Source of the DNA: Limisphaerales bacterium
Lineage (GTDB): Bacteria > Verrucomicrobiota > Verrucomicrobiia > Limisphaerales > UBA11358
Length of the DNA: 33,410 nt
NCBI GenBank assembly: GCA_003151855.1
Contig: PLYV01000094.1
Span: forward strand, 1-33,410
Reading direction: 5' to 3'
Part shown: positions 6,933 through 10,952 of the stretch, in pieces
Layout: every line of letters starts with the position of its first letter
Position numbering within the stretch: the stretch's first letter is position 1
Notes under the pieces: generated by a model
Told to the model about the DNA's origin: nothing
The model's database searches: none
The model's input: only the letters and a program-made list of their open reading frames with translations
Translations under genes and position numbers: made by a program

Positions 6933-7295
6933 TTATTCCCCGCGATAAACCGCCCGCGCCGTGCAGGTCTCAGCCACGACGATTTCCGTGAGCAACGGCA
7001 ACTTGGGCTTCAACTTTTTCCAAATCCAAATCGCCACCACTTCGCTCGTCGGATTTTCGAGGCCGGGAATTTCGTTGAGATAATAATGATCGAGCTTTTC
7101 CCAAAGCGGCTTGAACGCCGCCGAGATGTCGGCGTAATCCATCAGCCAGCCGAGTTTCGGGTCACACTCGCCCGCCACAACGACCTCGACGCTGAAGCTG
7201 TGGCCGTGCAGCCGGCGGCATTTGTGATTCTTTGGCAGCAGTGGTAGCAGATGCGCCGCCTCGAACTGAAACGTTTTTCTTAATTCCATTTTCAT
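6933..7295 (-). CDS. queD: 6-carboxytetrahydropterin synthase QueD family
   Basis: 120 aa with the full 6-pyruvoyltetrahydropterin synthase-like pattern. FEAAHLLP supplies zinc ligand His15, CRRLHGHSF supplies the catalytic Cys26 and zinc ligands His30 and His32, and NPTSEVVAIWIW and VAETCTARAVY complete the fold. QueD turns dihydroneopterin triphosphate into 6-carboxytetrahydropterin, the first dedicated step to queuosine and other 7-deazaguanines. The ATG overlaps the stop of the luxC-like gene (ATGA). No queC or queE lies in the window. The product could also serve another pterin pathway, though the Cys and spacing match QueD. Confidence 0.92.
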   Translation of the reverse strand: MKMELRKTFQFEAAHLLPLLPKNHKCRRLHGHSFSVEVVVAGECDPKLGWLMDYADISAAFKPLWEKLDHYYLNEIPGLENPTSEVVAIWIWKKLKPKLPLLTEIVVAETCTARAVYRGE

Positions 7296-8716
7296 AATTC
7301 AAAATCTATCCAAGTGATTAAGTCACCGAGCGCCGGACGGCCGTCGTGACGCCAGGTCAGAGGCGGGTTTTGCATCTGGCCGAGCGGACAAATCCGCGTG
7401 ACGCCCCAGCGCGCAAATTGCAGCGCCAGCGCCCTGCTCTTCTCATCCGGCGCAGCGATGCCCACGGTCGAAATTTTTCCAACAATCTCGTCCACGCCGG
7501 GCAATACCGCCGCCACGTCCGGCACCGGCTTGACGTAGATAAACCGGTTCAGCGGCGAGAAGCGGAAACGCACTTCATGCTCAAACACCACCGTCCACGC
7601 GGTTGAATTCCGGCTCGCCCACAGCTTCACGTCGCCGCGATGCGCCGCGAGCGATTCGTAGAGCGAACGCCGCGAGGCGATGGCGGCGGATTCTTCCACG
7701 GAAATTTTCCCGCGCGGTTCGGCAGCCTCGCGCCGCATCAGCTCGGCGGCGAGCAGCGCGGCAAATTTGTCCGATTCCACCGCGCCGCGTTCCTCGACGT
7801 AGATGACGTGCGGCGAGAGGCAGCCGTTTTGATCCCACGCAATCACGTCGTCCGCCGCGCAGGAAACAACCTTGGCAATGTCCTCGTCGCGCAAAACCTC
7901 GCGCGCCACATAGCCAAAGCTGACGCGCTGACCGTAGCCGAGGAAGCGGGTCTTCGCCGGCAGCCGCGAGCGGATCGCCAGCAGCGTCTCGTCGCTGCCG
8001 GTGGCCGTCACGCAATCGGCCCCGGCGAACAGCGCGGTTTCCAAAGCCACGTTGCCGCCGCGCCACTCGGCCAGTTCGAGGCACGCACCAAGCTTGTGGT
8101 CGGCTTCGTAGATCGAATGCGCAAAGAGGCGGGGCAGCAACGCCGCGCCGCTCGCGCACTTCATGAACTGCGCCGAGCGCGTGAGCAGGCCGAGCGTCAG
8201 GCTCATCAGGGCGGGATTCGGCAGATTGCCCGCCGCGATGTGGACGAGCAAATCCGGCCCATGCCAGAAATGAGGCGGTTGGCACTGGGCGCGGGGCGCG
8301 GGGTGGTGAGATTCCGTCACCGCCATGCCATTGTCCAAATCTTGTTCCAGCAACGCCTGAAAATTCTCCGGCGTGAACCGGCGGAAAAACTCGTCGAGAC
8401 CGCGCGCCAAAATTTCCGGCGGAAAACCTGCGGCTGGAGCGCCGGCCTCCGGCACGGCGTGTTTCAACGTGTCGCCCGGGCCGTGCCGGAGGCCGGCGCT
8501 CCGCCCGCTTGCCAGCGCGAGCCGGCGGAATTTATTTTCCGGCCGGAGCCATTCCGACGCAACTTCGCACAGGATGCTCACAAGCTCGTCCGTGGTGCGC
8601 GACACCAGATATTTCTCGCGGTTGCGTTTCAGCGTGTCGCACGCCTCCGTAATCATCGTGGGCGACAACGTCGCTTCCGGCGGCAGGTCGGCGAGGAAAT
8701 AGTTCGGAAGGTTCAT
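7292..8716 (-). CDS. Acyl-CoA reductase, LuxC family
   Basis: 474 aa. The family features are GPDLLVHIAAGNLPNPALMSL (about 153-173), VTATGSDETL, FLGYGQRVSFGYV and DQNGCLSPHVIYVE, with Cys299 as the likely thioester-forming cysteine. LuxC-type enzymes reduce an activated fatty acyl group to the aldehyde with NADPH. The gene starts six bases after the luxE-like stop and overlaps queD by four bases, so it belongs to this operon. Residues of about 70-97 are encoded by a perfect 23-base inverted repeat and its flanks, an in-frame insertion lying between the N-terminal helices and the core. No luciferase (luxAB) gene is present, so the role is not light production; a wax, aldehyde or lipid tailoring role is possible. 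Confidence 0.85.
   Translation of the reverse strand: MNLPNYFLADLPPEATLSPTMITEACDTLKRNREKYLVSRTTDELVSILCEVASEWLRPENKFRRLALASGRSAGLRHGPGDTLKHAVPEAGAPAAGFPPEILARGLDEFFRRFTPENFQALLEQDLDNGMAVTESHHPAPRAQCQPPHFWHGPDLLVHIAAGNLPNPALMSLTLGLLTRSAQFMKCASGAALLPRLFAHSIYEADHKLGACLELAEWRGGNVALETALFAGADCVTATGSDETLLAIRSRLPAKTRFLGYGQRVSFGYVAREVLRDEDIAKVVSCAADDVIAWDQNGCLSPHVIYVEERGAVESDKFAALLAAELMRREAAEPRGKISVEESAAIASRRSLYESLAAHRGDVKLWASRNSTAWTVVFEHEVRFRFSPLNRFIYVKPVPDVAAVLPGVDEIVGKISTVGIAAPDEKSRALALQFARWGVTRICPLGQMQNPPLTWRHDGRPALGDLITWIDFEL
8431..8507. repeat. Palindromic element inserted in frame in the luxC-like gene
   Basis: Two perfect 23-base arms (8436-8458 and 8480-8502) with the core GCCGGCCTCCGGCAC flank a 21-base loop, and the outer bases GCGG/CCGC extend the pairing. 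The element is open through the coding frame and adds about 28 residues rich in Gly, Ala and Pro to the acyl-CoA reductase. Confidence 0.9.
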
Positions 8717-8722
8717 CGGGGT

Positions 8723-9982
8723 TTACGCGTTCATCAAGGAACAGCCGCGTGGTTCGGCGAGTTGCGCGCGACCGATCAGTTCAAAGCCGTCACCCCGGCG
8801 GACGCCCAAATCTTCCGTCTGGATGGCGGCGACGGAAAAGACATTCGCCAGATCGAGAATGCGGATGAGTCCGGTTTCGCCTTCGCCGACTTCGCGACCG
8901 GTTTCCGGTGAAATGATTTGCACGCGCGCCCAGGGTGGAAAATGAAAGTGGCGGGTGACGGGTGACAGGTGACGGACGGGCGTCACGCCACTTGCCACTT
9001 GCCACGCGTCACTCGTCACGCTGTCGTAAGCCTGCGAGCTTAATTCACTCATGCCGTATTCGCAGAGGATGTTTTCACGCGGCACGCCGAGACGTTCGGT
9101 GATGAGCACGTGCAGTTCCGCCTTGGGCAGCGTGCGGGAACGGTTTTTGTAACCGCCGGTTTCCATCACGCGCGAACCGGGCGGAACCTCGACCCGCAGG
9201 TCTCGCTCCACCAAGTAATCCAGCAGGTGCACAAAAGAAAACGCGGTGCCCAAAACAAGTGACGGGTGACGAGTGACGGGTGACGGGTTCAGCGCTGCCA
9301 GCGTCGCCGCGAAATCCAGCGTCCACGAGCCATCGTCTGCCAGCTTGCCGAAAAATTCGTGCCGGCTCGCGCCTTCGCAGGAGCAAAGCTGCTCCGGCGA
9401 CGCAAGCGCGGGGACGCTCGCCCCACCACCGAGCTTTTGCCGCACCACTTCAAACATATGGACAAGCGAGGAGTGCGGCACCTGCTCTGGCGGCGGCGTC
9501 AGGATGGCCAATTTGAAATTTGAAATTCCAGATTTGAAATCCGGCAGGGCGTTCGCGCAAAACTGCGGCCACAGCGACGCCTCATACACCGCCAGCGATT
9601 CGGCGCAGTGGAAATGCCGGCTGGGTTTCTGCTCCGTCGTGCCGCTGGAATGGAAGACGGCGGTGCGTTCGGCTGGCGGAATACTGGTGAGTTCCAGTTC
9701 CTTGAACGCGCCCGTCGGCACGGCGGGGATTTGCGTCCAAACTTTCACCGTCTCCGGCGTGAGGTTGCGCGCCGCGCAGATTTTGCGGTAGGCGGGATTG
9801 TGCTGGAACTGGAGCGCGAACAGTTCCAGCGCCAGCGCGGAAAATTCCAAATCCAAAATGTCGCGCGAAGAACGCAAAGGAGGCGCAGGGACTTTTTCTT
9901 TTCGGTCTTCGCGGTCTTCGCGCGACGCACTCGAAATTAATTCGCGCAGGCGCGCGGCAAAACTGGAAAGTTCTTGGTTCAT
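8723..9982 (-). CDS. LuxE-like acyl-protein synthetase / acyl-activating enzyme
   Basis: 419 aa from ATG 9982. The adenylate-forming signature FHSSGTTEQKPSRH lies at about 110-123, METGGYKNRSR at 273-283, EYGMSELSSQAY at 308-319, and ETGLIRILDLAN with IQTEDLG near the end. LuxE proteins activate a fatty acid with ATP and hand it to the LuxC reductase, and the luxC-like gene follows after six bases. The protein is longer than usual because at least four, probably five, repeat-derived stretches lie in frame: about residues 19-42, 148-158, 186-208, 231-241 and 320-346. All key motifs lie outside them, so the enzyme may still work. The open frame extends upstream to 10201 without any family similarity; MNQELSSFAARLREL is the natural start. 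Confidence 0.85.
   Translation of the reverse strand: MNQELSSFAARLRELISSASREDREDRKEKVPAPPLRSSRDILDLEFSALALELFALQFQHNPAYRKICAARNLTPETVKVWTQIPAVPTGAFKELELTSIPPAERTAVFHSSGTTEQKPSRHFHCAESLAVYEASLWPQFCANALPDFKSGISNFKLAILTPPPEQVPHSSLVHMFEVVRQKLGGGASVPALASPEQLCSCEGASRHEFFGKLADDGSWTLDFAATLAALNPSPVTRHPSLVLGTAFSFVHLLDYLVERDLRVEVPPGSRVMETGGYKNRSRTLPKAELHVLITERLGVPRENILCEYGMSELSSQAYDSVTSDAWQVASGVTPVRHLSPVTRHFHFPPWARVQIISPETGREVGEGETGLIRILDLANVFSVAAIQTEDLGVRRGDGFELIGRAQLAEPRGCSLMNA
8954..9023. repeat. Heptamer repeat inside the luxE-like gene (copy d)
   Basis: Three units GGTGACR are followed, after a short turn, by five units of the complementary type (CACTTGC twice, CACGCGT, CACTCGT, CACGCTG), all in exact 7-base register. 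It encodes roughly residues 320-346 (SVTSDAWQVASGV and SPVTRH) between the EYGMSELSSQAY motif and the C-terminal subdomain. Confidence 0.85.
9259..9286. repeat. Heptamer repeat inside the luxE-like gene (copy c)
   Basis: Four exact 7-base units (GTGACGG, GTGACGA, GTGACGG, GTGACGG) encode the stretch PSPVTRHPS, near residues 231-241. The unit is the same as in the copy at 8954-9023, and the protein repeats SPVTRH at both sites. Confidence 0.88.
9364..9424. repeat. Imperfect palindrome inside the luxE-like gene (copy e)
   Basis: The centre GGAGCAAAGCTGCTCC (9380-9395) is flanked by partly complementary GC-rich arms. It encodes the Gly/Ala/Ser/Cys stretch near residues 186-208, which has no counterpart that I know in LuxE. 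This is the weakest of the five candidate insertions in the gene. Confidence 0.45.
9510..9543. repeat. Heptamer repeat inside the luxE-like gene (copy b)
   Basis: Units AATTTGA, AATTTGA, AATTCCA, GATTTGA in exact 7-base register encode FKSGISNFKLAI. It is the same AATTTGA-type unit that forms the tail ISNLKFEI of the CNNM gene at 2765. Confidence 0.85.
9860..9926. repeat. Palindromic element inside the luxE-like gene (copy a)
   Basis: A perfect 12-base inverted repeat (GTCGCGCGAAGA at 9860-9871 and its complement at 9915-9926) bounds 67 bases. The part next to the right arm holds 9-base units of the type GCGAAGACC. In the protein this gives SREDREDRKEK and a Pro/Arg-rich stretch near residues 19-42. 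Confidence 0.8.
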
Positions 9983-10767: not shown

Positions 10768-10952
10768 GGAAATTAGCCGGGGGCAAGCTGCCAGCGCCGC
10801 CCCCGGAACGACCACCTCTCGGAGTCCGCCCCGGCGGGGCGGTGGAAGGCTGGGGAACATCCCGTTCCGGCGTCCTTTCAGGACGCTGACGACTCGGAGG
10901 CCGTTACCGGGGGCGGCGACCGCCGGGGCGGTCTTGCCCCCGGCTAATTTCC
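10768..10952. repeat. 185-base MITE-like element with GGAAATTAGCCGGGGGCAAG ends
   Basis: Perfect 20-base terminal inverted repeats (10768-10787 and 10933-10952) enclose a GC-rich centre with CGGCGGGG/CCGGGGCGG-type stretches. It interrupts the frame that starts at 10671. The structure indicates a small mobile or formerly mobile element. Confidence 0.8.

Follow-up and report, generated by a model that had tools for sequence, protein, structure and literature searches.

The exact palindrome found in a LuxC-family gene of a Limisphaerales bacterium belongs to a dispersed repeat family. It is very probably a REPIN/BIME-type non-autonomous mobile element, most likely moved by a RAYT, in which GGAG replaces the tetranucleotide GT[AG]G.

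An exact palindrome lies in frame within a LuxC-family gene

In the window, by which we mean the whole 33,410-nt stretch of DNA that was analysed, the palindrome has two exact 23-nt arms (8436–8458 and 8480–8502) around a 21-nt loop (8459–8479). A preliminary description had placed it at 8431–8507 with 23-base arms and a 21-base loop, which is right to within a few bases, and had considered the arms too good to have arisen by chance. The arms form the longest exact inverted repeat in the window (spacer up to 100), and the best exact inverted repeat in 60 order-1 Markov resamplings of the window was 15 nt versus the 23 nt observed, bearing out that judgement. Around the exact core, the imperfect outer arms of the inverted repeat (I1) reach 29 nt (8430–8458 and 8480–8508, 93% complementary); other copies end at GGAG/CTCC, and the extension (8430–8508) is host flank. 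Folded as single-stranded DNA, the palindrome has a z of -9.4, and an Rfam search with it returned no match.

The element sits, as had been proposed, in frame in a luxC-like gene, which is encoded on the minus strand (7292–8716) and matches the LuxC-family acyl-CoA reductases (PF05893, E = 5e-64), with a score far under the curated LuxC equivalog cut-off. Upstream of this gene is a LuxE-family gene, and downstream are PTPS, ACPS and CNNM/CBS genes. The insert corresponds to residues 72–94 (23 codons; window 8435–8503). In the AlphaFold model residues 72–97, between helices 62–72 and 100–112, have a pLDDT of <50 while the remainder is fairly confident; the insert is predicted to form a disordered loop between two helices.

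LuxC orthologues are mostly empty at the insertion site

Among 30 LuxC orthologues of the window's genus group, counting its own, 28 lack the insert and carry a continuous LALxxGPAETGF, leaving only the window genome (G000) and one other genome, G030, with an insertion. Measured against the empty orthologues the net gain is 21 codons (63 nt), lower than the roughly 28 residues that had been attributed to the element. In a second set, which partly overlaps the first, all 71 alignable homologues have a 6–7 residue loop at this site. Conservation of the insert as LuxC protein, which the preliminary description had named as contrary evidence, is thus not what these two sets show.

The G000 and G030 inserts have identical start and end codon positions, the same phase, the same 67-bp length and the same net gain; their arms are nearly identical and their loops differ. 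In a maximum-likelihood LuxC tree computed with the inserts removed, G000 lies far from G030, the sister sequences from G003, G016 and G031 lack the insert, and two changes are forced (starred branches). Since the tree separates the two in this way, we favour two separate insertions that hit one and the same nucleotide over a single old insertion followed by many precise losses.

The palindrome belongs to a dispersed repeat family with common ends

An exact 18-nt core of the arm occurs at one further place in the window genome and in 22 of 97 genomes, with up to 42 matches in G030 and 26 in G031; the reversed control of this core gave no match across the same 97 genomes. With a covariance model built from 43 copies, we found approximately 20 distinct places in the window genome (37 matches, both strands, E ≤ 0.01) and matches in 47 of the 97 relatives, which belong to Verrucomicrobia subdivision 3/Limisphaerales. 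The nearest named LuxC relatives are MAGs of this same group, and the window genome is itself an assembly of 331 contigs that is about 70% complete. Family copies share the exact ends GGAG...CTCC while their flanks are unrelated. The unit measures 61–75 bp, mostly 71–72 bp, with 23-nt arms, and the loops are unrelated among copies (mean pairwise identity 0.36). A sister subfamily (GGGAGCGCCGGCATCCTGCCGGC...) is also present in the window genome.

The arms are therefore not unique in the genome, as the recurrence of the 18-nt core and the 20 or so model places demonstrate, and the search of host and related genomes that had been suggested as a check yielded dispersed copies with common ends, supporting a mobile palindrome. 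The accompanying expectation of many intergenic copies was borne out for the shared ends but not for the location, since most of the sampled copies (33 of 57) are intragenic.

No target-site duplication above expectation was found at the copies, as would be expected for HUH single-strand transposition, unlike a DDE-type MITE. Sought as a target motif, the flanks showed only a weak bias, with ATT preceding GGAG and AAT following CTCC. The net insertion length implied by HemB equals the element length and that implied by LuxC is the element length minus 4; the other genes examined give no single value, nor do the 71–72 bp copies, and a fixed net insertion length was rejected.

Each element is composed of two inverted REP-like units

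The arm has the layout GGAG-C-[GCCGGCC TCC GGC(A)CGGC], in which the tetranucleotide GGAG, or GGAA in some copies, sits one base ahead of the stem of a small bulged hairpin. In the window the left REP-like unit (GGAGCGCCGGCCTCCGGCACGGC; 8436–8458, plus strand) thus comprises a 5' GGAG, one spacer base and the hairpin, and the right unit (8480–8502, minus strand) is its exact inverted copy, with the minus-strand GGAG at 8502–8499. The two units enclose a loop (8459–8479) whose sequence is unrelated from copy to copy, the whole forming a REPIN-like element at 8436–8502. Across the family, two small hairpins, one within each arm (98.3% of cells paired, 29 double changes, covariation score 0.180), accounted for the alignment better than a single long hairpin (95.3%, 25 double changes, 0.121). 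As the covariation within arms exceeds that between arms, we interpret the unit as two inverted REPs, i.e. a REPIN or BIME.

Several further properties are those of REPINs and BIMEs: the inverted REP pair has a short spacer, every REP forms its own small hairpin (by covariation and fold), copies are many and dispersed within a genome and, in relatives, cognate REPs flank a RAYT gene. The 5' tetranucleotide, however, is GGAG instead of GT[AG]G, and the location is not mainly extragenic, with 33 of 57 sampled copies inside genes. We therefore describe the element as REPIN-like, a variant that functions in the manner of a REPIN.

Family copies reside in frame in unrelated protein-coding genes

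By a codon-usage test, 33 of the 57 sampled copies (58%) lie in open genes whose coding signal is present on either side of the copy. Random places fell inside genes at 66% (p = 0.20), and an enrichment of copies in genes was rejected, the copies being neither significantly enriched nor significantly depleted there. The hosts of in-frame copies include LigA, RecQ, a TrpE-like protein, HemB, CstA, ValS, RecN, Lnt and MnmE, along with radical-SAM, COX15/CtaA, UvrD-like, HrpB-type helicase and DnaX proteins; those in the window genome include a HemG/HemY-like oxidase, RibD, TilS, GH43, PdxA and DUF2851. The best solved homologues of HemB, LigA, MnmE and ValS are without all or most of the inserted segment. 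Because all three reading phases are in use across the host genes, a selected peptide is disfavoured.

For 14 genes the orthologous sites are empty or differently filled. Same-type copies occupy the same site in other species in RecQ, Lnt, radical-SAM, TrpE, ValS, CstA and UvrD, reflecting either recurrence or inheritance with loop divergence. A second type of in-frame insert, with a peptide like RSSGRESAHSSSAKNQSRLTSAATG (L246, L251, L252, L262), shares sites in HrpB (G022, G001), RecQ (G022) and an acetyltransferase/aminotransferase-like protein (G022), and is apparently another repeat family in the same permissive loops.

A RAYT family in related genomes is flanked by matching arms

A 258-residue protein of G031 and its relatives in G069, G001, G065, G037, G035, G060 and G094 have matching arms nearby, of the form GGAGCGCCGnnnTCCnnn(n)CGGC, in which nnn is often different but self-complementary. 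Around the ten closest RAYT loci there are 38 arm matches in 35 kb, while there are none in 64 kb at the next twenty, more distant RAYT loci, none in 96 kb around other Y1_Tnp loci and, for comparison, 5 in 125 kb at the luxC loci. These proteins match the NCBIfam model REP_Tyr_transpos (NF047646; E = 1e-19 to 4e-26), for which the cut-off of 80 is missed by the G031 RAYT (73 bits) and exceeded by the G035 relative (91.5). Their match to TnpA_REP in the PDB (4er8) is weak (E = 7e-4), and the HVH and RYIENNP motifs, containing the HUH and the downstream Tyr, are visible in the sequence.

Each of the eight genomes in which a RAYT matches closely (E ≤ 1e-75, a threshold set after the data had been seen) has at least 20 covariance model matches, both strands counted, against a median of 0 elsewhere. 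This association between RAYT and abundance (Fisher p = 3e-6; Spearman rho = 0.38, p = 1e-4) is uncorrected for phylogeny. A close RAYT was not found in the window genome in its approximately 70% complete assembly (best E = 1.4e-5); G016, which is among its closest LuxC relatives, has a close RAYT that contains an internal stop. The RAYT genes of G031 and G069 each harbour an in-frame copy of their own REPIN, at the same site and with differing arms (L128:2164-2234 and L052:1751-1821).

Other Y1_Tnp genes were considered as a source and set aside, as the 30 best PF01797 loci are without matching flanking arms; only the RAYT relatives recovered by protein search showed them. The one clear Y1 gene of the window genome, on contig C169, was likewise rejected, being an IS200-type transposase gene flanked by different palindromes.

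Together, we infer that a RAYT is the mover, that the mechanism is single-stranded and that GGAG has a guide role. A RAYT, an HUH/Y1 single-strand transposase present in relatives, would bind the hairpins on single-stranded DNA, take GGAG as its guide, cut out the REP pair and insert it elsewhere with no target duplication. One copy would have landed in the loop between two LuxC helices. As neither arm contains a stop codon in any frame and the net gain of 63 nt is a multiple of three, the gene would have stayed open, gaining about 21 disordered residues, and the LuxC protein with the insert presumably still works.

Alternative origins of the element

A short, multi-copy palindrome that has perfect terminal inverted repeats and encodes nothing itself would also fit a conventional MITE, mobilized by a DDE transposase through those repeats. 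We consider this quite improbable, since target-site duplication is not above expectation, the arms covary more as two small hairpins than as one long hairpin, and matching arms lie beside Y1/RAYT genes. Selection for a functional RNA or protein element (an attenuator hairpin, for instance, or a beneficial peptide in LuxC) would fit the perfect arms and the very stable hairpin (z about -9), but is very improbable given that almost all orthologues are without the insert, the loops are unrelated among copies, three reading phases are used across host genes, Rfam gave no match and the segment is modelled as disordered. That the palindrome is an artefact of metagenome assembly is hardly credible: the genome is fragmented, its nearest named relatives are MAGs and repeats can mislead assemblers, but the reading frame is intact, the same structure recurs at the same site in G030 and dozens of in-frame copies are found across other assemblies and genes.

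For LuxC, an alternative history would trace the G000 and G030 inserts to a single ancient insertion, lost by precise excision in the other lineages. Their equal codon position, phase and 67-bp length would follow directly, Pseudomonas REPINs are reported to excise (PMC3116915), and loops diverge quickly, such that unrelated loops are compatible with common descent. Nevertheless, the tree needs two changes and the sisters are empty, the 6–7 residue loop is constant in the 71 alignable homologues, and many precise losses would be needed. The 48% identity between the two loops is also unremarkable, as 16% of loop pairs equal or exceed this value. A single origin is thus unlikely.

Relationship to known palindromic elements

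REPINs and RAYTs are established systems, characterized by tetranucleotides of the form GT[AG]G and by REPs that lie almost exclusively between genes (PMC3116915, PMC3686654, PMC6006769). The elements described here resemble REPINs and BIMEs with RAYT (Bertels and Rainey 2011, PMC3116915; PMC3686654) in being dispersed, RAYT-flanking, inverted REP pairs with a spacer, but differ in having GGAG rather than GT[AG]G and in that 58% of copies are in coding genes. Intragenic REPs of the GTAG and CGTC types have been described, most of them in the verrucomicrobium Opitutus terrae, with DNA ligase among the hosts, and recB REPs occur at about the same site in two Xanthomonas species (PMC3733652). Like those of O. 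terrae, our elements are in-frame REP dimers in verrucomicrobial protein genes that encode 20–30 residues, whereas the tetranucleotide is GGAG here and of the GTAG/GTGG types there; the text of PMC3733652 does not mention GGAG. Beyond that work, we document empty sites, link a RAYT family to the elements and test same-site insertion phylogenetically.

The classic in-frame palindromes are the Rickettsia palindromic elements (RPEs; Ogata et al. 2000, reviewed in PMC10969869), which were reported at approximately 150 bp and whose sequences were found to end in CGTC; for CGTC REPs no dedicated transposase is known (PMC3733652). The present family shares with RPEs the in-frame insertion of palindromic selfish DNA into unrelated protein genes; unlike them, its unit is 61–75 bp, ends in GGAG...CTCC rather than CGTC and goes with RAYTs. 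A subterminal hairpin, a 5' guide tetranucleotide and the absence of target duplication recall IS200/IS605 elements with their HUH Y1 transposases, although the element here is without a transposase. We found no description of a GGAG-type REP or REPIN in the open-access literature, coverage of which was incomplete.

REPs are named for their extragenic position, and the tolerance of bacterial proteins for selfish DNA is an open question. A transposase-linked family that does not avoid genes, placing in-frame peptides in DNA ligase, valyl-tRNA synthetase, HemB, MnmE, TilS and RibD, bears on this question, and the empty sites in many related genomes make the cost, age and recurrence of the inserts directly measurable. 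The same-nucleotide insertions in LuxC provide a concrete test of RAYT target choice. We tentatively raise the possibility that the family represents a GGAG-type RAYT/REPIN lineage of Limisphaerales that has adapted to gene interiors and keeps entering the same few protein linkers, at one and the same nucleotide, in different species. If so, the stop-free arms and adjustable loop would make insertions survivable, repeated entry at one nucleotide would reflect target preference or strong selection, and the family would be a natural and recurring supplier of disordered loops to core enzymes.

Other repeats in the window and its genome

The neighbouring LuxE-family gene (8723–9982, minus strand; PF04443) had been described as holding a different element. 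Short GTGACGG-type arrays are indeed present in its variable linker after GMSELSSQAY, but we found no second palindrome. These heptamer arrays, partly inverted, fall at 8948–9035 and 9259–9290 and occupy two linkers of the LuxE-like protein. Other short repeats (such as ...KLKTQNSKLI and NPQSAI.NPQLI) often make up these linkers in relatives, as though local repeat families had overwritten them, and the first linker, of 12–14 residues, roughly keeps its length. After GMSELSSQAY, the G022 linker carries a REPIN-type peptide and the G030 linker a related palindrome (L107:951-1023), making this a permissive spot that resembles the LuxC site.

The window also has, at 10768–10952, an inverted repeat (GGAAATTAGCC...) whose arms are separated by 145 nt. 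It resembles the palindrome beside the IS200-type transposase gene on contig C169 of the window genome (L010:718-886) and may be a remnant of that element or a non-autonomous relative of it. Contig C183 of the same genome also has, close to a weak Y1_Tnp match, a dense cluster of other palindromes (L011:1161-2637; TTTGGAGTGCG...), likely another REP-type family.
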